This document shows positions 5,131-62,225 of a stretch of DNA of 64,000 nt, piece by piece. The notes below the pieces were generated by a model, which worked only from the letters and a program-made list of their open reading frames with translations, was not told the DNA's origin and made no database searches. Where the stretch lies: assembly GCA_944989445.1 (NCBI GenBank), contig CALYLW010000184.1:559501-623500 (forward strand), in the 5' to 3' direction. Source of the stretch: Ampullaceana balthica. Its lineage: Eukaryota > Mollusca > Gastropoda > Lymnaeidae. How positions within the stretch are numbered: position 1 is the first letter of the stretch; the number at the start of each line of letters is the position of its first letter. Made by a program: the position numbers and the translations under genes.

Positions 5131-5471
5131 TATGGGGCCGTCCATAAATGACGTCACGCAATTTTGACCGATTTTCACCCCCTCCCCCCATCGTCACGCG
5201 TCGTCACAAAAAGTTAGCCCCCCCCTCCAAAAATACGTCACAAAGCTTTGACCCCCCCCCCAAAAAAAAACAAAAAAAAACAACAATTTTAAAAAAAACA
5301 ACAAAAAAACCAACAAAACAACAACAAAAAACACCTTATTTTCTATTTGAAAATGAATATTTTTCAAATCATTTTTATTTTGTCATTTAATTATTTATTT
5401 AGTGTATGTCTACATTGTAATGTCGTAATACGCGTGAAGCTATGTAAAACGGCATTAAATAAATTGTAAGC

Positions 5472-7506
5472 CAGTGCTTCTCAAACTTTTTGGTATTAGA
5501 CGACCGCTAGGTATTTTTTTAATGCATTTCACCAGGTACCGGTGTATTCTTTTCCCGTTTTGACGTGATATTCCCTGTACCGACGTGGTAGCAAAATGAG
5601 CCCCTAGATGGCTTAAAGCCCTATAAGATTAAGTATCATTTCTGCTTGTTTTATATAATATATATTTTTTAAAAATTTGTCTAGTTGCCAAGGCATAGCA
5701 ATACAGCTAACGAACAATGCAGCGGTAATTTCAAAAACCATTTTGATGTGATTAACCTTCGCGATTAAGCTCGCGAATAATAATAATAATAATAAATTTA
5801 TAATTTATATAGCGATGTATCATGCCTGTATCCCAGTAAGGAACTGGCTATGTAACTATTGATATGACACGGATCATTTCATTGTTGATAAACCAAGAAT
5901 ATATAGATACAAGACGATTCCTCAAATTGATTTCAATCTTATAATGACAGTTTTCCTGCTAAGTATATGCACGTCAAAGGCATTTGGTTTAAAATTACCA
6001 CATTGATATCAAATCTCATGTTTTCTAAAAATTATTTGGTATGCGCTGGAAGAGGAATATGGCGAGTACTGTACGAACCCCACATTTGTGCAGGAAAATA
6101 GGGTGTCCTCTTGTGCGTCGCAAAATACAGTAATACTTCAAGTTGAAGATTGAACTATGACATTCATAAAATATCCAATATTATCATAAGTTTTTATTCC
6201 AAAGCTCACGAGTTTTTTGTTGTTGTTGTATTGACGAGGAGGCGTGTTTAAATTGTTGCATTCTCTTGTGGAATTTATAAACTAATTAAAAATACATGGC
6301 TACCGCTAAGCGGGCGCTTATGAGGTTTTACATATGCTATTCACTCATTCTCTACGTATAGATCTCTCTTTGGCCTTCTAAATTAGAAATTTTTAATTTT
6401 TATACCTAACACCTGCCCCACGTTTTTAGTCATATTATATCGAAGTACTTGAACTAATAAGTTTTAACTTATTTTCTTCTTTTTAGTCCGCTTATAAAAA
6501 CGTGGTTTTTTAAAATCTTTTTTTCTACTTCTATTTATTTTATTCTTTTTAGTCCACTTATAACAACCTGGTTTAAAAAAAAATTTTTTTTACCTCTATT
6601 TATTTTACCAAACACCTCACAAGTGCCCGCCCAACGTTTTAAAAACATTGTGATGTGGTCACGGGGTGAACTCGCGGATGTCAACAAAAGCAGACGGTAC
6701 AGATGCTTATATAGACAAAAACTAAAAACTAAAAGTGCAATAATTTAATAACGGTACATTCGATCGATCTTAAATTTTGATACAATGCATTGTCATCCAA
6801 GATCTATCTGTGGTAAAATTTTCAGATCTCTAGGACCATCAGAAGTGGTTCAATTTTACGTTGGCAGATTTGAAAAAATCTTGGACAAACCAACAAACCA
6901 ACAATCAGGAACGAAAGCGAGTTAATAAAAACGTGGTAAAAAAGGGAACTCTTGTCGTTTGACCAAAAACCAATGGAACAATTATATCAAGCTTAAAACG
7001 TTTATAATTGTATCAAATAGATTCCCCCCCCCCAAAAAAAAATAAATAAATAAATAAACTAAAATAAAAATAAAAATTGATATTTCGTGTCGTTTTGACT
7101 TAAAATATCTTTACATAATACTATTCAGATCATTTTTAGACACTTGTCATGCTTGTAAAACTCACCAGTTGCATTTTCGGGGGGGGGTGCTAACGACGCT
7201 CCCCCAAATCCCCGAGTCATGTGAGCAGGACCTCGAGTGGGGGGGGTGGGTAACTCACACAGAAACTTGTATATTTTGGGGTAACGGACAAAAAAGTTCG
7301 TCGACTACTGCCGTGTGAGAGCCAAACGGAGCAGCGGTGACATCAAAATGCTTTGATGTCAACATCAAACGACGCAGGGTAACAATTGCATACATTCTCA
7401 TGAGTTCTCAAACTTAAGGATTATAATTAGATTTAATTTTCATTTCTTGATAACTTACGCCGACCGGCGTCTGATGGCCTACCGACCGGTACTTTGAGAA
7501 GCACTG
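5472..7506. mobile_element. hAT-like element with CAGTGCTTCTCAAA ends, nested in the MITE
   Basis: CAGTGCTTCTCAAAC at 5472 is mirrored by the complement of CAGTGCTTCTCAAAG ending at 7506. No clean 8-bp duplication abuts the ends, but CATTAAATAAATTGTAAG occurs at 5453-5470 and again at 7516-7533, so the host sequence is duplicated around the insert. The interior has an (AAT)n tract near 5775 and another repeat at 6305-6941, and no transposase could be read. Confidence 0.55.
6305..6941 (+). repeat. Dispersed repeat ending in AAAACGTGG (copy 1)
   Basis: Shares GGGCGCTTATGAGGTTTTAC, the CGATCGATC module and the terminal GAGTTAATAAAAACGTGG with the copy at 24868-25569. This copy lacks the left tip. 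Non-coding. Confidence 0.6.
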
Positions 7507-7691
7507 ATTTTAAATCATTAAATAAATTGTAAGTGACCAAATATTTCAGTGGAAGTTTTATTTAAAGTTACCCTTTTGATGTGACGTCACATTTCTTCAA
7601 CCCCCCTCCCTCCCCCTCGACATGCATCGTCACAAAAGTGTGACCCCCCTCCCCCCCTAGGTGCGTGACGTCATTTATGGACGGCCCCTAT

Positions 7692-49566: not shown

Positions 49567-49984
49567 TCAATACAAGGATAAGTTACTCATACAAGGATAA
49601 GTTATTGGGCTTTTGACCAAAAAATAAGCCTATTATAAAATACTTTGTGTACATTTAAGAAAGTTTAATATTACGTATTTATCATACAAGGACAAGTTAG
49701 TTGAGCTTTTGAAAAAGGTGGGCGCCGTAGGCGCCCTTAAAAAATGGGGGCGCCATGGCACCGCAGCACAAACTAGTCATATACATATTTACGCTCAATT
49801 ATCGCTGACTGTGGCCTATCGCTAAATCATAATCCTTTTGGTTTCCAGATTAACATTAACCAAACAACGCACGAACCTATGACATCAGCATTTGTGTTGT
49901 AAACAGTGCTGACTGATTCAAAGAGTTATTTTTTTTGGTGCAGTAATTTGGTGCGCTGCTTTCTAAAATTATGGAACAACACGC

Positions 49985-51345
49985 CCCTGGTTGTTGGATG
50001 GCATTATGGAACACTATGTCACTGATTGTGGGATAGTGCTATGGAACACTACGTCACTGATTGTGGGATAGTGCTATGGAACACTGCGTCACTGATTGTG
50101 GGATAGTGCTATGGAACACTGCGTCACTGATTGTGTGATAGTGCTATGGAACACCACGGCACTGATTGTGGGATAGTGCTATGGAACACTGCGGCACTGA
50201 TTGTGTGATAGTGCTATGGAACACTACGGCACTGATTGTGGGATAGTGCTATGGAACACTACGGCACTGATTGTGGGATAGTGCTATGGAACACTACGGC
50301 ACTGATTGTGGGATAGTGCTATGGAACACTGCGTCACTGATTGTGTGATAGTGCTATGGAACACCACGGCACTGATTGTGGGATAGTGCTATGGAACACT
50401 GCGGCACTGATTGTGTGATAGTGCTATGGAACACTACGGCACTGATTGTGGGATAGTGCTATGGAACACTACGGCACTGATTGTGGGATAGTGCTATGGA
50501 ACACTACGGCACTGATTGTGGGATAGTGCTATGGAACACTGCGGCACTGATTGTGGGATAGTGCTATGGAACACTACGGCACTGATTGTGTGATAGTGCT
50601 ATGGAACACCATGGCACTGATTGTGGGATAGTGCTATGGAACACTGCGGCACTGATTGTGTGATAGTGCTATGGAACACTACGGCACTGATTGTGGGATA
50701 GTGCTATGGAACACTACGGCACTGATTGTGGGATAGTGCTATGGAACACTACGGCACTGATTGTGGGATAGTGCTATGGAACACTGCGTCACTGATTGTG
50801 TGATAGTGCTATGGAACACCACGGCACTGATTGTGGGATAGTGCTATGGAACACTGCGGCACTGATTGTGTGATAGTGCTATGGAACACTACGGCACTGA
50901 TTGTGGGATAGTGCTATGGAACACTACGGCACTGATTGTGGGATAGTGCTATGGAACACTACGGCACTGATTGTGGGATAGTGCTATGGAACACTGCGGC
51001 ACTGATTGTGTGATAGTGCTATGGAACACTACGGCACTGATTGTGTGATAGTGCTATGGAACACTACGGCACTGATTGTGGGATAGTGCTATGGAACACT
51101 ACGGCACTGATTGTGGGATAGTGCTATGGAACACTGCGGCACTGATTGTGGGATAGTGCTATGGAACACTACGGCACTGATTGTGGGATAGTGCTATGGA
51201 ACACTACGGCACTGATTGTGGGATAGTGCTATGGAACACTACGGCACTGATTGTGGGATAGTGCTATGGAACACTACGGCACTGATTGTGGGATAGTGCT
51301 ATGGAACACTACGGCACTGATTGTAGGATAGTGCTATGGAACACC
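49985..51345. repeat. 35-bp minisatellite, about 39 copies
   Basis: The unit is ACTGATTGTGGGATAGTGCT followed by ATGGAACACTACGGC. The variant ending ACCAYGGC recurs at 50160, 50370, 50615 and 50825, that is every 6 or 7 units, showing a higher-order repeat of 210-245 bp. Non-coding. Confidence 0.95.
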
Positions 51346-52039
51346 ACGAGAACAAATGTGAAAAAACACGTGGACTACATAACTGAATGAACTCAACTTG
51401 ATTGTTTATTGAACTTGCTCTTCAGCAGCGATTCTCAACCTGTGGGTCACGACCCCAAAGGGAGTCTTTTAGCTGATATCTTAGAAACAAAAAAATTGGC
51501 TTAATCTCAAATTCAGGGAAAGGAGACACATTTTTATTGAATTTCACAATCGTGTCCGGGCTTTTGTTATCCAAGCCGCTAAACTGGCGAAGAAAAGTAA
51601 ATATGGGAAACATCGCCATCTTTGAAAAACTCTCCAGTCTGGTAGATGAATGTGAAATCTTAAGGGGGGAGATTACTGGGCATCTTGAATCCCTTGAAAA
51701 CTAACTGCAGCACTGCAGCATTACTTCCCTTAGGGGCCGTCCATAAAGTACGTCCATGGGCGTCGCTAGGAATTTTTCCAGGGGGGGGGGCAAAAAAACA
51801 CCCACTTTTTTATTTTAACTGACAATGCCATACAGGTACAATTTTCAATTAAATTCAAGTTCAGTATAAAATAAGGGTCGAAAAAAGCCTTAGAAATTAA
51901 TAAGACTTACAAATTAGTGCTGTAATTGCTAAAATACAACATTTATTAATGCATTTAATAAATTAAAAACTTAAGTTCTCACGAGAAAATTTGAATTTTG
52001 CTGTGAAATAATATACGTGTACAAGCTGCAGGATTACCA

Positions 52040-53990
52040 AGGATGGATATCAGAAATTTTTTTACAGGCTAAAAAAAAAGTCGAAAAGTAGACCTATCGC
52101 GGGATTCCGAAACGCCGTTATTAGAAGATTTTGGGGCGTCTGCAGCATCTGACTTATCATTGGCATTGAGGACAACAGAACACGTTCAACAGCCAGACAC
52201 AACCGAAGCAACTGTTCCTAATTTGATTGTCGCTGACACTTATTCATTTCCTAAATTGGATATTGGAAGGTATGTCTGGACATACGACCTTTCAAATAAG
52301 TTGAAATTGCAGCTGATTCGTGATTGTTGGACCCTTGATAAAAATTATGATTTTAGAGCTGGCAGTTAGGGAAACAGAGTTTTTAGTTTTTAGATATGCA
52401 TGGTTATCAGACTATTCACCGTGGCTTGTATACTCGCAAATGTTAATAGGTGCCTTTTGCAAATATTGCGTGTTGTTTCTGCAAAAAGTAATTCTATGAG
52501 TTCAGTGGGTATTTGTCATCAAACCATGTACAAAATATAAAGATTTCAACGAAGATGCACGTAGCAACCTGCAAAGCACATTATGGCACAAAGGCTCTCA
52601 TGAAGATGCAAGCAATTGTATTTGCTTTATTGGAAGCCAAAGCAGTTTCTATAGATGAGCAGTTGGACTTATCATTTAGAAGACAAATTCAAGAAAATCG
52701 CAACCAACTGGGTCCCATCATTTCTACAATCCTATTTTTCTGCATGCATGTTTTAGCACTTCGTGAAACAGAATCAAATTCTGGTAATTTGTATGAACTG
52801 TTAGAGTTTCGTGTTGAATCTGGAGATGAAGTTCTTGGTAATCTTTTGTTAATTGGTTCTTGTAGTGCTGAGTATGGTTCATCGACTAAACGCCCCGGAC
52901 AAAACGGCCCCGACAATTGGGCTCCGACATAACGGCCCCGACAAAACGGCCCTGGACTAATAGATGGACAAATAGTAAAATTTACAATCAAATATATTTG
53001 TATTTTTACTCACCTATTCAGTGTCAGGCTTAGCTAACAATATAAACAATAATAATAACACCACAAAAGTGAATTTAATAGCCATTACGCGAAATGGTAC
53101 CAATAACGGTTGTTTGTTGACAAGAAACAATATAATAACGTCACAAGAAATAATTTTACAATTTTACCACTTTTTTAAGGGTGAAAAAATTGACGAAAGC
53201 TTAAAATGCAAACAAAATTAATTTTTTTGTTAAAAAATGTTTACAATTTATCTGGGGCCGTTTTGACCGGGGCCGTTATGTCGGGGCCATTTTATCTGGG
53301 GTCGTTTGACGGGTAACCGCGGAGTGTATCTCGGCAACTACGCAAAACACTAAAATCGAAATTTGTGGGTCTCTCTTGCATGAAGACATTGTTCGTGAAG
53401 CAAATAATTCAGTTGCATTTTCTATACTTGCCGACGAGACAAATGACATTTCGGGAGGCATTGAGCAGATGTCACTTTGTGTTAGTTTTGTAAAATTAAG
53501 AACAAAATGGGAAAATGATGGTCACAGAAGAATTCCTGGGATATATTACAATTGTCAATAGAACAGCTGAAGGTTTAGCCAACACCATCATTACTAATTC
53601 ATTAGAATTTTGATTAAATATGACAATGCTTGTTGGTCAAGTATACTACGAATGTTCTACAATGGCAGGTAAAGAAGGAGGAGTCCAAGCAATAATTTGA
53701 AAAAAATACCCAAAACAGCATTTTTACATTGTAGTTCACATAAACTAAATCTTGTTGTGAAAGATTTAAATAATGTGAATGTTGTACGAAACACAATAGA
53801 AACAATTAAGTCAATTATAGTGTTTTTCCGAGAAAGTAATCAGCAAAGAACACTTATTCTAAATGTCCCTTTGCTATGTGAAACTAGATGGACACAAATA
53901 TAAAAGCTTGCGGATTTTTGCTGAAAATGTTACAGAAATTGTTAAACAACTGGAATATTTAGAACAATCAGTAATGTAATCAGTTATACT
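52040..53990 (+). pseudogene. Degenerate hAT transposase (TTF zinc finger/DUF4371 type)
   Basis: In order across frames: MDIRNFF (52042), SFPKLDIGRYVWTYD (52245-52290), GAFCKYCVLF (zinc-finger start, about 52452-52480), TLWHKGSHEDA (about 52581-52615), then EDIVREANNSVAF and ADETNDISGGIEQMSLCVSF (53379-53490), which contains the first catalytic Asp region of this family. Next FLHCSSHKLNLVVKDL (53718-53770) and LCETRW (about 53874-53892). The C-terminal dimerisation domain is missing. Stops throughout. An unrelated insertion lies at 52876-53318. Confidence 0.75.
52876..53318. mobile_element. GGTTCAYCGAC-ended MITE (copy 1), innermost layer
   Basis: Left end GGTTCATCGAC and right end complement GGTTACCCGTC are inverted. 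Inward, both sides carry tandem CGGCCCCGACAAAACGGCCC-like modules. Flanks GCTGAGTAT and GCGGAGTGT agree at 7 of 9 positions. It interrupts the hAT transposase between SAEY-type text and the next block. The copy at 61852-62225 shares over 80 bases of its left end almost exactly. Confidence 0.8.
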
Positions 53991-54779
53991 TGCAGATATA
54001 ATTCTTTTTTATGTTTGATAAATGTAAACTGTCTTCCATGTAATAAACTTTAAGGAAATTTAGTTCAGTTTTATTGTAACAACTTTATGACATTTTTATG
54101 AATTTTTTTTCTCAAATGTAGGGGGGGGGGCAAATGCCCCCCTTGCCCCCCTTCCCTACGCCCATGAGTACGTCACGCTATTGTTGACAATTTTTGACCC
54201 CCCCCCTCCCCCATTGTCACAAACTGTCACAACTCTCGGGACCCCCCCCCCTAAAGTACGTCACACTTTCCAAAATATTTTTAATTAAAACCTAATTAAA
54301 ATATTTAATTTAATACTTAAAATACACTTCACTATTATATTGTATTAAAATATAAAATTTCCACTTAAAAGTAGGGATGTACCGAATTCAAAATTTTGAA
54401 ATCCGGCTTGAGCTGAAGTGGGCCGGATTTATGAAATAAAATCCGGCTGCAGCCGGAATCAGATTTGTTAAAATGGCTGGATTCCGGATTTTCCGGGGCC
54501 ATTATGATTATGAATATATATATATATAAATTAGGGATCTACCGGCCAGCCGGATTTATGAAGTGAAATCCGACCGGATTCGAAGCCGGAGCCGGATTTT
54601 TAAAATTACATAATAAAAAGGAAACAAAACAATTTGACTATAAAAAAAGACTAGATTGACAAATTATGTGACCAACTCTTGTGCTAGATTTGATCTGTTT
54701 ATAATGGTCCTATGAATTATATTTCATTCAAAAATATTCACTGGACATCATCTGTGTTCATCCATAGTTACGACTGACA

Positions 54780-55449
54780 TCAATCTTTCACAATCATCGT
54801 TTCCTGGAAGGATAATTGCAGACAGATCAACTCGTCCTCATCTAGCCACTCAAAAGCCTCTGTATGTGCATTTTCTCCTCTGGCAATAACTGCCATGGGT
54901 TCTCTTTGACTTCTAGAAGTGATTCTCAAAGAACGGCTGCGTTTTATCTGAGTTGATTCTTGAACAGTTTGGGTGGGCACATCCTTCTGAGCCCGAGCTC
55001 TGTGTTGACCTGTATGTTTCTTCAACATTGTTTTTGAGGCAAAATATGAGTGACATACTTTGCAAAGTCGATCAAATAAGCTGTTAATCATATGGTTGTA
55101 CTTTGAAAGCTCCTGTTGATCTTGGCACAATTTCATAAAATTTTAGAGTTTGTGCTACAAGCAAGGAAGGAAATTTATGAGAATCTGCATCTGCTATTTC
55201 TTAAGCTTTGATTCCATCATTTGTTTGGTTGATTGGGATTGGAGGAGGGAAGAATCTTTAGGGTAAAACGTTAAAATATGAGCTTCGTGCTTTGTCGCAA
55301 CATTTCATGTCCTGATATTTAATAACAATTTGAGTGAAATATGGGCTGGTGCGAATGTGATTGTCAAACCATTCCTGATCGTTCGATATCAGTCCTGCTG
55401 TATCCGATTCAGATTTATGAACAACACATTTAGGAGATACACATTTCAA
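54780..55449 (-). pseudogene. C2H2-finger protein relic inside the GGGGCCGTCC element
   Basis: Minus-strand text from 55449 to 54780 reads as one damaged protein. Segments: CVVHKSESDTAGLISNDQEW and HIRTSPYFTQIVIKYQDMKC, then two in-frame stops around RFFPPPIPINQTNDGIKA, then FPSLLVAQTLKF, a one-base shift, and a C2H2 zinc finger CKVCHSYFASKTMLKKHTGQH-type (20-residue core shown as CKVCHSYFASKTMLKKHTGQ). A basic and then acidic tail ends at 54780. I do not recognise the family; it may be an accessory or transposase-associated protein of this element. Confidence 0.5.
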
Positions 55450-56446
55450 TGCTATTTTGACATAAAACTAATTCTAATGTTTCAAAAAAAAATTGAAATT
55501 TATTTTTAAAGCTACTTAAATTCTACTAAAAAAATATAAATAAATTAGAAAAAAAAACTAAAAATAATAAATAATGTGTGACATCACACATGGCCTGAGA
55601 CCCTCCTCCCCCCTGTCACAAAGTGTCACACTTTCTTAGACCCCCTCCCCCCTTGGAGCGTGACGTACTTTAAGGACGGCCCCTTAGCTGACGTACTGCA
55701 GCATTACTTCCCTTAGCTGACGTACTGCAGTATTACTTCCCTGAGCTGAAAGAAGAAGAGACTACATTGACAAGAAATCCGTTCTCTGCTTTTCTTGGTG
55801 TAGCCAGCATTCCTGATGATTTAAAAGATAAATTCTGGATTAGCGGAATGACTCCTCGGCACATTACTTGTTTAATGAAAAGTTGCTCACTCAATTTTGG
55901 TGAAGTGTGCATCGTTCATACCCAAATGTGGCGATGCTTGCCTTTCGAGTTTTAGTTCCAATTGTGTCTACATATATCTGTGAGGGTGGATTTTCAACTC
56001 TTTTTCATTTAAAAACAAAAGTTAGAAATAAATGAAATGTTGAGAGTGACATGAGGTTGGCTTTAACAAAAACTCACCCGTGAATTCGGAAGCTGGTTGA
56101 TGACATGCAATTTCCACCATCACATTAAACTAATTATTAAACGTAATTTAAAATATAATAATAATATTAATATATATTTTTTAAAAAAATTCTTAAAAAC
56201 ATTATTGAAAACGCCTTATTTAAATTTCATGGTGGTCGTAGGTCACATGGGTTTGAAAAAAGAGATCGCCACCCAAAAAAGGTTGGTAACTACTGGTCTA
56301 CAGCCATTCACGCCCCAGGAGAGTTGTTTCTGGTCAAGTTATGGCACTATGATACATTACATTTCTAGGACAATGATGCAACATATCCGAATGGCGAACA
56401 GCAAACGTAGAAGTTTGGCGACGATGTTTACAATTTCTGGATCCTT

Positions 56447-56622
56447 CCTGATCCTAAAGGAACCCAACCTGCTGACCCTAAAGGAACCCAACCTGCTGAC
56501 CCTAAAGGAACCCAACCTGCTGACCCTAAAGGAACCCAACCTGCTGACCCTAAAGGAACCCAACCTGCTGACCCTAAAGGAACCCAGCCTGCTGACCCTA
56601 AAGGAACCCAACCTGCTACAAT
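56447..56622. repeat. 24-bp minisatellite, seven copies
   Basis: AAAGGAACCCA recurs every 24 bases from 56455 to 56599. The unit has no stops in several frames, producing spurious peptides such as LTLKEPNL. Non-coding. Confidence 0.95.
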
Positions 56623-57057: not shown

Positions 57058-57722
57058 AGATGGATAGTTGACCAGACGAATAGCCCTATGTTGGATGGTT
57101 GACCAGATGAATAGCCCTATGTAGGATGGTTGACCAGATGAATAGCCCAATTTTGGATGGTTGACTAGATGAATAGCCCAATGTTGGATGGTTGACTAGA
57201 TGAATAGCCCTATGTTGGATGGTTGACTAGATGAATAGCCCAATGTTGGATGGTTGACTAGATGAATAGCCCTATGTTGAATGTTTGACTAGATGAATAG
57301 CCCAATGTTGGATGGTTGACTAGATGAATAGCCCTATGTTGGATGGTTGACTAGATGAATAGCCCTATGTTGGATAGTTGACTAGATGAATAGCCCAATG
57401 TTGGATGGTTGACTAGATGAATAGCCCTATGTTGGATGGTTGACCAGATGAATAGCCCTATGTTGGATGGTTGACCAGATGAATAGCCCAATGTTGGATG
57501 GTTGACCAGACGAATAGCCCAATGTTGGATGGTTGACCAGATGAATAGCCCTATGTTGGATGGTTGACCAGATGAATAGCCCAATGTTGGATGGTTGACC
57601 AGACGAATAGCCCTATGTTGGATGGTTGACCAGATGAATAGCCCTATGTTGGATGGTTGACCAGATGAATAGCCCAATGTTGGATGGTTGACCAGACGAA
57701 TAGCCCTATGTTGGATGGTTGC
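57058..57722. repeat. 31-bp minisatellite, about 21 copies
   Basis: The unit is CCCTATGTTGGATGGTTGAC followed by CAGATGAATAG. Two variants at the fourth base (CCCT/CCCA) and TAGATG/CAGATG alternate along the array. Confidence 0.95.
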
Positions 57723-57899: not shown

Positions 57900-58175
57900 T
57901 AAATAAAACTATGTCCTGTACAATACACAGTACAAATAGAACCATGTCCTGTACAATACACAGTACAAATAGAACCATGTCCTGCACAATACACAGTACA
58001 AATAGAACCATGTCCTGTACAATACACAGTACAAATAGAACCATGTCCTGTACAATACACAGTACAAATAGAACCATGTCCTGTACAATACACAGTACAA
58101 ATAGAACCATGTCCTGCACAATACACAGTACAAATAGAACCATGTCCTGTACAATACACAGTACAAATAGAACCA
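57900..58175. repeat. 33-bp minisatellite A, eight copies
   Basis: The unit is AAATAGAACCATGTCCTGTA followed by CAATACACAGTAC. The 33-bp period keeps frames open on both strands, which explains the long open frames here. Confidence 0.95.
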
Positions 58176-58202
58176 TGGTGTACAGAGAACACAACAAACC
58201 TA

Positions 58203-58615
58203 TAACCACATTGCATACAGACCCATGTTGTATGATGTACACATTCCATACAGACCCATGTTGTAAGATGTACACATTCCATACAGATTTATGTTGTATG
58301 ATGTACACATTGCATACAGACCCATGTTGTATGATGTACACATTCCATACAGACCCATGTTGTAAGATGTACACATTGCATACAGACCCATGTTATATGA
58401 TGTACACATTGCATACAGACCCATGTTGTAAGATGTACACATTGCATACAGACCCATGTTATATGATGTACACATTGCATACAGACCCATGTTGTAAGAT
58501 GTACACATTACATACAGACCCATGTTATAAGATTTACACATTGCATAAAGAGCCATGTTGTAAGATGTACACATTGCATACAGACCCATGTTGTAATATG
58601 TACACATTTTATTTA
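58203..58615. repeat. 33-bp minisatellite B, about 12 copies
   Basis: The unit is ACATTGCATACAGACCCATG followed by TTGTAAGATGTAC. Adjacent to array A and with the same period but unrelated sequence. Confidence 0.95.
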
Positions 58616-58849
58616 GAGCCATCATGTAGAAAAGCTTGGCAGAAATTATTTGTTCATTTTAATGACACAGTCAAACTAAACTTAGATTAACATTTACAGA
58701 AGAAAAAACAAATCTTGGTCACATATCTTGAATGTTTTAACCCATTTGGCTGACTAGCAACTTATTTAATTGATTTAGCTAAAATGATGGAGAAATGAAA
58801 ATATTAGAGATTCTTCATGTTTTTGTTGACCATTTATCAGAGACATACC

Positions 58850-60045
58850 TAAATATGTCTTTTGATATATCAATATCTAAATCTGTTGATATATCAATAT
58901 CTAAATCTGTCTGTTGATATATCAATCTCTAAATCTGTCTTTTGATATATCAATCTCTTAATCTGTTGATATATCAATACCTAAATCTGTCTGTTGATAT
59001 ATCAATATCTAAATCTGTCTTTTGATATATCAATATCTAAATCTGTCTTTTGATATATCAATATCTAAATCTGTCTGTTGATATATCAATATCTAAATCT
59101 GTCTTTTGATATATCAATATCTAAATCTGTATTTTGATATATCAATCTCTAAATCTGTCTTTTGATATATCAATCTCTAAATCTGTCTGTTGATATATCA
59201 ATCTCTAAATTTGTCTTTTGATATATCAATATCTAAATCTGTCTGTTGATATATCAATCTCTAAATCTGTCTTTTGATATATCAATATCTAAATCTGTCT
59301 TTTGATATATCAATCTCTTAATCTGTTGATATATCAATACCTAAATCTGTCTGTTGATATATCAATATCTAAATCTGTCTTTTGATATATCAATATCTAA
59401 ATCTGTCTTTTGATATATCAATATCTAAATCTGTCTGTTGATATATCAATATCTAAATCTGTCTTTTGATATATCAATATCTAAATCTGTCTTTTGATAT
59501 ATCAATCTCTAAATCTGTCTTTTGATATATCAATCTCTAAATCTGTCTTTTGATATATCAATCTCTAAATCTGTCTGTTGATATATCAATCTCTAAATCT
59601 GTCTTTTGATATATCAATCTCTAAATCTGTCTTTTGATAAATCAATCTCTAAATATTTCTTTTGATATATCAATCTCTAAACCTTTCTTTTGATAAATCA
59701 ATCTCTAAATATTTCTTTTGATATATCAATCTCTAAACCTTTCTTTTGATATAATTCTCTAAATATGTCTTTTGATATATCAATCTCTAAACCTTTCTTT
59801 TGATATATCAATCTCTAAATCTGTCTTTTGATATATCAATCTCTAAATCTGTCTTTTGATATATCAATCTCTAAACCTTTCTTTTGATATAATTCTCTAA
59901 ATCTGTTGATATATCAATATCTAAATCTGTCTGTTGATATATAAATCTCTAAATCTGTCTGTTGATAAATCAATCTCTAAATCTGTTGATATATCAATCT
60001 TTAAATCTGTCTGTTGATATATCAATCTCTAAACCTGTCTGTTGG
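58850..60045. repeat. 28-bp minisatellite, about 42 copies
   Basis: The unit is GATATATCAATCTCTAAATC followed by TGTCTTTT, with occasional 23-bp short units. A block beginning CAATCTCTTAATCTG recurs 362 bases apart (about 58951 and 59313) with near-identical following units, so there is higher-order structure. Confidence 0.95.
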
Positions 60046-61851: not shown

Positions 61852-62225
61852 GGTGACCCGTCAAAATGGCCCGAGACATATTGTTAATATTTTTTTACAT
61901 TTTAAGCATTTTTCAACTTTTACGCCCTTAAAAAAAGAAAAGGTAAAATTCTAAAATTATTTCTTGTGATGTTTTTATATTGTTTCTTGTCAACGAACAA
62001 CCGTGATTGATACCATTTCACGTCAAGACTATTAAATTCACTCTTGTGATGTCATTACTATAGTTTATTGGGAGCTAACTAAACCTGACACTGAATATGT
62101 GAGTAAAAATACCAACATAATATTTGATTGGACATTTTACTATTTGTCCATCTATTAGTCCAGGGCCATTTTGTCGGGGTCGTTATGTCGGAGCCCAATT
62201 GTCGGGGGCGTTTTGTCGGTGAACC
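61852..62225. mobile_element. GGTTCACCGAC-ended MITE (copy 2) with 9-bp duplication
   Basis: Ends GGTGACCCGTC (61852) and the complement of GGTTCACCGAC (to 62225). The flanks are CAGACAATC on both sides (61843-61851 and 62226-62234). Orientation is opposite to copy 1 at 52876. A 9-bp duplication is typical of Mutator-like elements, but no transposase is present. Confidence 0.8.

Follow-up and report, generated by a model that had tools for sequence, protein, structure and literature searches.

The window analyzed here is a 64,000-bp stretch of the 1.1-Gb genome of the gastropod Ampullaceana balthica (G000:C184:559501-623500), in which four transposable elements lie inside one another at positions 51426-56295. 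The outermost is a Charlie-type hAT element, which contains a GGGGCCGTCC element (hereafter, GGGG element). The GGGG element contains a second hAT of the DUF4371 type, and this in turn holds a GGTTCATCGAC miniature inverted-repeat transposable element (MITE). The initial annotation had described four distinct nested elements with defined ends and target-site duplications, all of which we found. It had also taken the order of insertion to be fixed by the sequence, with the MITE last, and this step was contradicted by sibling copies from the same genome.

Ends and target sites of the nested elements

Sibling copies define the ends of the elements independently of the flanks in the window, and their matches place these ends at the positions first proposed. 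Each genome search returned at most the best 40 matches per query, and the counts given below describe best matches rather than whole families. The agreement expected by chance was estimated from 200,000 random position pairs of the window. Exact 8-mers occurred in 0.011% of the pairs, matches of at least 6/8 in 0.73%, of at least 7/9 in 0.27%, exact 3-mers in 2.1%, and inverted matches of at least 10/15 in 0.2%. Because an exact 8-mer is so rare, the 8-bp duplication of the inner hAT is strong evidence unaided. For the Charlie and MITE flanks and for TTA, evidence from elsewhere is required, and TTA/TTA flanks by themselves would be weak.

The Charlie-type element (51426..56295, plus strand) is interrupted by the three other layers. 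Its termini, CAGCGATTCTCAACC and CAGTAGTTACCAACC, agree in inverted orientation at 10/15 positions, and its flanks, CTCTTCAG (51418..51425) and GTCTACAG (56296..56303), are alike at 6/8. With the right-end query 55684-56310, in which position 612 corresponds to 56295, 39 non-self main matches of 79-84% identity were listed; 32 of them end at query positions 606-620 (56289-56303), and 7 stop earlier. For the left-end query (51400-51560), every candidate was scored, and the 37 non-self matches fell into two non-overlapping classes. The 11 terminal matches stop at or before 51466; eight of these start at 51423-51426 and three start 8-10 bases upstream of 51426. The 26 coding matches start at 51467-51476. 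Since the two classes meet at 51466/51467, the window copy is best read as an internal-deletion derivative, in which the terminal stretch 51426-51466 is joined to a 3' part of the transposase gene from about 51467. One sibling (L066) has a 198-aa frame with a Dimer_Tnp_hAT match (1.9e-05), and this frame reads through the spot where the GGGG element sits in the window. Through this domain, layer 1 is assigned to hAT at the superfamily level. The name Charlie is that of the initial annotation and is used here as a putative one.

The GGGG element interrupts a 29-bp tandem stretch of the Charlie-type element, as judged by the repeat finder and the siblings. The start of the stretch lies at 51712..51732 and the other units, with repeat-finder bounds, at 55681..55749 (both plus strand), the first three bases of the latter belonging to layer 2. 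The window copy has about three units. At the same spot, one unit is present in L066, one degenerate unit in L067, two in L065, approximately 14 in L068, and approximately 43 in L064; none was recognized in the Charlie sibling L069. The sequence CCCCTTAGCTAACG in L065 is close to the CCCTTAGCTGACG left in the window once the GGGG element is removed. The 29-bp unit, whose length is not divisible by three, thus forms a minisatellite within a transposon gene and varies widely in copy number. On contig C201, matches to the repeat span nearly 3 kb (G000:C201:823234-826197).

Layer 2, the GGGG element (51733..55683), is flanked by TTA/TTA, with the right target copy at 55684-55686 by flank comparison. 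Without the hAT and one copy of the hAT's duplicated target AGTACGTC, it measures 1,531 bp, and its left terminal repeat matches the right one at 26/27 positions. Removal of the hAT in silico, one of the checks proposed at the outset, made the element continuous: five of six fetched siblings align over positions 1-1531 and the sixth over 1-1525, with identities of 92.4-95.7%. A left-end query joined across the hAT site, with query position 14 as the first G, gave 40 scored places, namely this locus, cut at the hAT, and 39 places that cross the join. All 39 non-self matches start at query positions 3-14. At the two that start earliest (L077 and L078), no Charlie flank was found, only short matches between A+T-rich repeats. 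Exact 3-bp duplications flank four of the six siblings (TTA twice, ATA, and TCA).

The GGGG copy encodes only a weak zinc-finger-like fragment, whose best Pfam value (0.00097) lies below the cut-off. The zinc-finger-like frame comprises 120 aa (54780-55142, minus strand); used in a protein search, it yielded four short unnamed relatives with 73-87% identity over 53-98% of the frame. The element also contains two AGGGATGTACCG-type starts in the same direction (54373 and 54533), followed by CCGGATTT-rich repeats (54373-54620). This stretch belongs to the GGGG element, because the sibling alignments run through it.

Layer 3 is a non-autonomous DUF4371-type hAT of 2,412 bp including the MITE (51755..54166, plus strand). 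Its ends, CATGGGCGT, match at 9/9 positions, and the 8-bp duplication AGTACGTC/AGTACGTC (51747..51754 and 54167..54174) is exact. With the left-end query 51733-51900, in which position 23 corresponds to 51755, 39 non-self matches were listed; 29 start at query positions 20-25, nine at 11-19, and one at 6. All 39 reach the end of the hAT part of the query, one of them stopping at the last base but one. The left flanks of 20 fetched hAT loci are unrelated to that of the window. Of these loci, 13 were whole enough to be aligned; L019 and L026 were excluded because an end was unclear or interrupted, and five lacked one end. Ten of the 13 aligned paralogues have exact 8-bp flanks. On one contig (G000:C2284), the copies L024 and L025 lie in opposite orientation; they agree in their flanks, TTTACAAC, and in 54 bases upstream, hinting at an inverted duplication, either of the locus itself or in the assembly. 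As they share one flank, the two may represent one event.

Pfam searches with the window's own fragments gave no match above the cut-off, neither for DUF4371 in the hAT fragments nor for any other family, and an Rfam search of the window gave no match. Through Dimer_Tnp_hAT and DUF4371 in its siblings, layer 3 is assigned to hAT at the superfamily level. The latter domain was detected above the cut-off in L060 (9.5e-16), L062 (2.7e-16), and L070 (3.7e-16), and weakly in L059 (0.024). In the initial annotation, this layer was labeled ZMYM1-like; DUF4371 is linked to ZMYM1, and the label is treated here as putative. L070, which covers the place of L062 with a longer cut, contains a MITE-free element of 3,516 bp. 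This element shares the CATGGGCGT ends, is flanked by exact copies of CGTGCTTC, and has a 572-aa frame, the DUF4371 match, and, in another frame, a Dimer_Tnp_hAT match (2.1e-07). Relative to L070, the window hAT is without roughly 1.0-1.3 kb of the transposase 3' end, the Dimer_Tnp_hAT domain included, and also without about 0.3 kb near the left end. The edge of the 3' loss is not sharp, because the right end of L070 repeats a stretch.

The MITE as part of the hAT subfamily

The MITE measures 443 bp (52876..53318) and is flanked by GCTGAGTAT (52867..52875) and GCGGAGTGT (53319..53327), which are alike at 7/9 positions. In all 13 aligned hAT paralogues, the flanks are GCTGAGTAT and GCTGAGTGT, the window having one private change. 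A separate MITE sibling of 374 bp within the window (61852..62225, minus strand) is flanked by an exact 9-bp duplication, GATTGTCTG, and is 85% identical to the nested MITE over 334 aligned bases. A Mutator-like identity was considered for the MITE. The 9-bp target duplication of such elements is present, as shown by the two copies of GATTGTCTG and by the single site of the MITE-free hAT copies described below. The sibling at 61852-62225 sits in a short tandem array.

Three best-match samples of the hAT or the MITE, which overlap one another, were inspected for the presence of the MITE. In one hAT sample, it is present in 19 of 20 loci, L020 being interrupted and partial and L022 partial. The sole miss is L018, where the hAT match stops at element position 697, before the MITE site. 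In another sample, 28 of 29 non-self loci have the MITE, five of them only a part of it; the remaining locus, L042, contains neither the MITE nor the left part of the hAT. Finally, all 39 of the closest non-self MITE matches extend on both sides into the 5-7 adjoining bases that were included, and these are target-duplication bases of the hAT. Since the MITE occupies the same site in nearly all close paralogues sampled, it was not the last arrival at this locus. It belongs to the hAT subfamily and was inside the hAT before the latter landed here.

Copies without the MITE do exist. A query joined across the MITE site gave 40/40 contiguous matches with 93-96% identity, and all five fetched MITE-free copies have one GCTAAGTAT and a reading frame across the site, the longest being 546 aa in L060 and 491 aa in L062. 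For a phylogenetic tree built outside the MITE, 54 loci were offered, 43 were long enough, and 36 rows including the window remained after removal of identical rows; L059 and L061 were too broken to be used. The MITE-free rows that could be used, three in number, are united in a single clade with a support of 1.000. The window lies with 32 further MITE-bearing rows, between which the internal branches are very short. The distance to the window is 6.9-7.7% for MITE-free and 1.0-5.5% for MITE-bearing rows. The MITE-free copies placed in the tree thus form a separate lineage.

Two alternatives concern the MITE. In the first, Charlie, the GGGG element, the hAT, and the MITE would have inserted at this locus independently, one after the other. 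Nesting and duplications are indeed seen at all four levels. However, this scheme is at odds with a MITE that nearly every close paralogue sampled already carries at the same site, with the common GCTGAGTAT/GCTGAGTGT flanks of the 13 aligned ones, and with the unrelated outer flanks of the 20 fetched loci, by which the paralogues are not copies of this locus. For the MITE step, this scheme is refuted, and we regard four local insertions as very improbable. We think equally little of the second alternative, a hot spot in the hAT that received the same MITE repeatedly and independently. The MITE query had 2,643 first-look candidates in the genome, and the existence of MITE-free hAT copies would also suit a hot spot. 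Yet the bearers share the position and the left duplication; the MITE diverges about as much as its host element (0.009 from the consensus both inside and outside the MITE for the window copy); the 39 closest non-self MITE copies run on into hAT bases; and MITE-bearing and usable MITE-free copies separate in a tree made without the MITE.

Order of arrival

Divergence from siblings falls inwards, from 16-27% for the Charlie-type element through 4-8% for the GGGG element to about 1% from the family center for the hAT. These values are family distances rather than dates, and they are in agreement with the order Charlie, GGGG element, hAT. Empty sites of the kind sought at the outset were found for each inner layer, namely GGGG-free Charlie siblings, hAT-free GGGG siblings, and MITE-free hAT copies. 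By blastn, neither the GGGG element nor the hAT was found in the six fetched Charlie siblings, and neither Charlie nor the hAT in the six fetched GGGG siblings. The GGGG-hAT junction occurs in none of the 20 fetched hAT loci. A joint movement of the hAT and the GGGG element was rejected on the basis of this absent junction and the hAT-free GGGG siblings, and a joint movement of the GGGG and Charlie elements on the basis of their mutual absence. As the GGGG-hAT junction looks private, the hAT came after the GGGG element. With both junctions private in the copies examined, the proposed order of the outer three layers stands, as far as sibling sequences indicate.

We consider it highly probable that the nest arose by three successive cut-and-paste insertions, the last of which delivered a pre-assembled hAT-MITE composite. 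First, a Charlie-type hAT, now without most of its transposase gene, would have inserted into host DNA with an 8-bp duplication. Then the 1,531-bp non-autonomous GGGG element would have entered at a TTA in the first 29-bp tandem unit of the Charlie copy. Third, a defective DUF4371-type hAT of 2.41 kb would have inserted in the left terminal repeat of the GGGG element, duplicating AGTACGTC. Before that landing, and at another place, the MITE would have inserted with a 9-bp duplication into an ancestral hAT, within its transposase gene. The MITE-bearing lineage would also have lost the C-terminal part, and the defective composite would have kept its ends, multiplied, and landed here as a unit. 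Since the composite is defective and nevertheless multiplied, another source must have provided its transposase in trans; longer MITE-free relatives such as L070 are the most likely one. This scenario builds on features that were read directly: the ends and duplications, the sites of layers 2-4 seen both filled and empty in siblings, and the occurrence of the MITE throughout the subfamily as sampled. The entry of the MITE into the hAT ancestor is placed before the landing of the hAT; it may have been earlier or later than the arrivals of Charlie and the GGGG element here, and the MITE and the 3' deletion may have come in either order.

Several observations weigh against the three-step scenario. 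The outermost insertion is based on sibling-defined ends and a duplication of only 6/8. One of the 13 aligned hAT paralogues has 7/8 flanks, and two are without matching 8-bp flanks. Among the GGGG siblings, L071 is flanked by TTA/TTT, and the right end of L074 was not recognized. Some hAT copies are more diverged within the MITE than outside it (0.027 vs. 0.015 in L023 and 0.016 vs. 0.007 in L028). Pieces resembling the GGGG element occur inside or beside the hAT in two of the 20 fetched loci (L018, 1522-2772; L020, 317-576), in other places than in the window; the two families thus also meet elsewhere, there perhaps in reversed order. Junction privacy refers to the fetched copies only, and best-match samples may have passed over rare members of the young subfamily that lack the MITE.

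A more far-reaching idea is that the captured MITE aided the spread of the composite, so that capture was the cause of the burst and not a by-product. The MITE could provide a second complete set of ends, making the composite a substrate for two unrelated transposases, or its repeats could shield the element from silencing. We judge such a role improbable. That an assembly join made part of the nest is very improbable: the nest, read from the assembled sequence, contains no N, lies well within a 1.0-Mb contig, and its junctions are element ends with target duplications, unlike those of a random misjoin.

Known systems and surroundings of the nest

Nested insertions serve as relative clocks, and TEnest reportedly resolves clusters of nested transposable elements. 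REANNOTATE resolves such clusters with the order taken from the nesting level; in one plant genome, apparently A. thaliana, 3,619 nested insertions were inferred (PMC2672092). The nest described here resembles those cases in that elements are inserted in elements. It differs in its innermost layer: host and passenger were copied as one, which breaks the rule that nesting level equals order. When a mobile host carries it along, the innermost layer is not necessarily the youngest. A simple check for nests is to ask, junction by junction, if it occurs at the one locus only. Sibling copies were used here to test the three inner junctions; two of them look private, and the third is shared. We regard the case as ordinary biology plus one correction, namely that nesting depth is not insertion order, and we make no claim that a MITE riding in a hAT is unpublished.

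Elements of the Charlie group have terminal repeats of the CAG..TTCTCAACC kind. Layer 1 resembles them in its putative Charlie-type termini, in an 8-bp target alike at 6/8 positions, and, in sibling L066, in Dimer_Tnp_hAT; it differs by the internal deletion and by the 29-bp tandem stretch that varies among siblings. Layer 3 resembles hAT elements with DUF4371 and a C-terminal Dimer_Tnp_hAT domain (Pfam PF14291 and PF05699) in its 8-bp duplications, its CATGGGCGT ends, and the presence of both domains in L070, and differs in that the gene of the window copy is disrupted, 3'-truncated, and interrupted by the MITE. Tandem arrays inside transposons that spread with the element have been described as embedded minisatellites (PMC6947457). 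The 29-bp unit in Charlie copies resembles them, and neither the unit nor its family occurs in the passages of that paper on embedded minisatellites.

A separate relative of the GGGG element lies at 5134..7688, with TAT/TAT flanks and end repeats that agree at 27/27 positions. PIF/Harbinger elements have a 3-bp TWA target. Membership of layer 2 in this group was considered and rejected, as the targets are TTA, ATA, TCA, and TAT, not TWA only. By eye, the relative seems to hold a nested element of its own (5472-7507), whose ends are CAGTGCTTCTCAAAC; it has CATTAAATAAATTGTAAG to its left and right, but the immediate 8-bp flanks do not match.

On either side of the nest lie minisatellite arrays, several in all, with unit lengths of 24-35 bp. 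The repeat finder placed them at 49970-51348, 56448-56617, 57061-57721, 57901-58177, 58207-58608, and 58849-60000, the last of which reaches the end of the scanned stretch.

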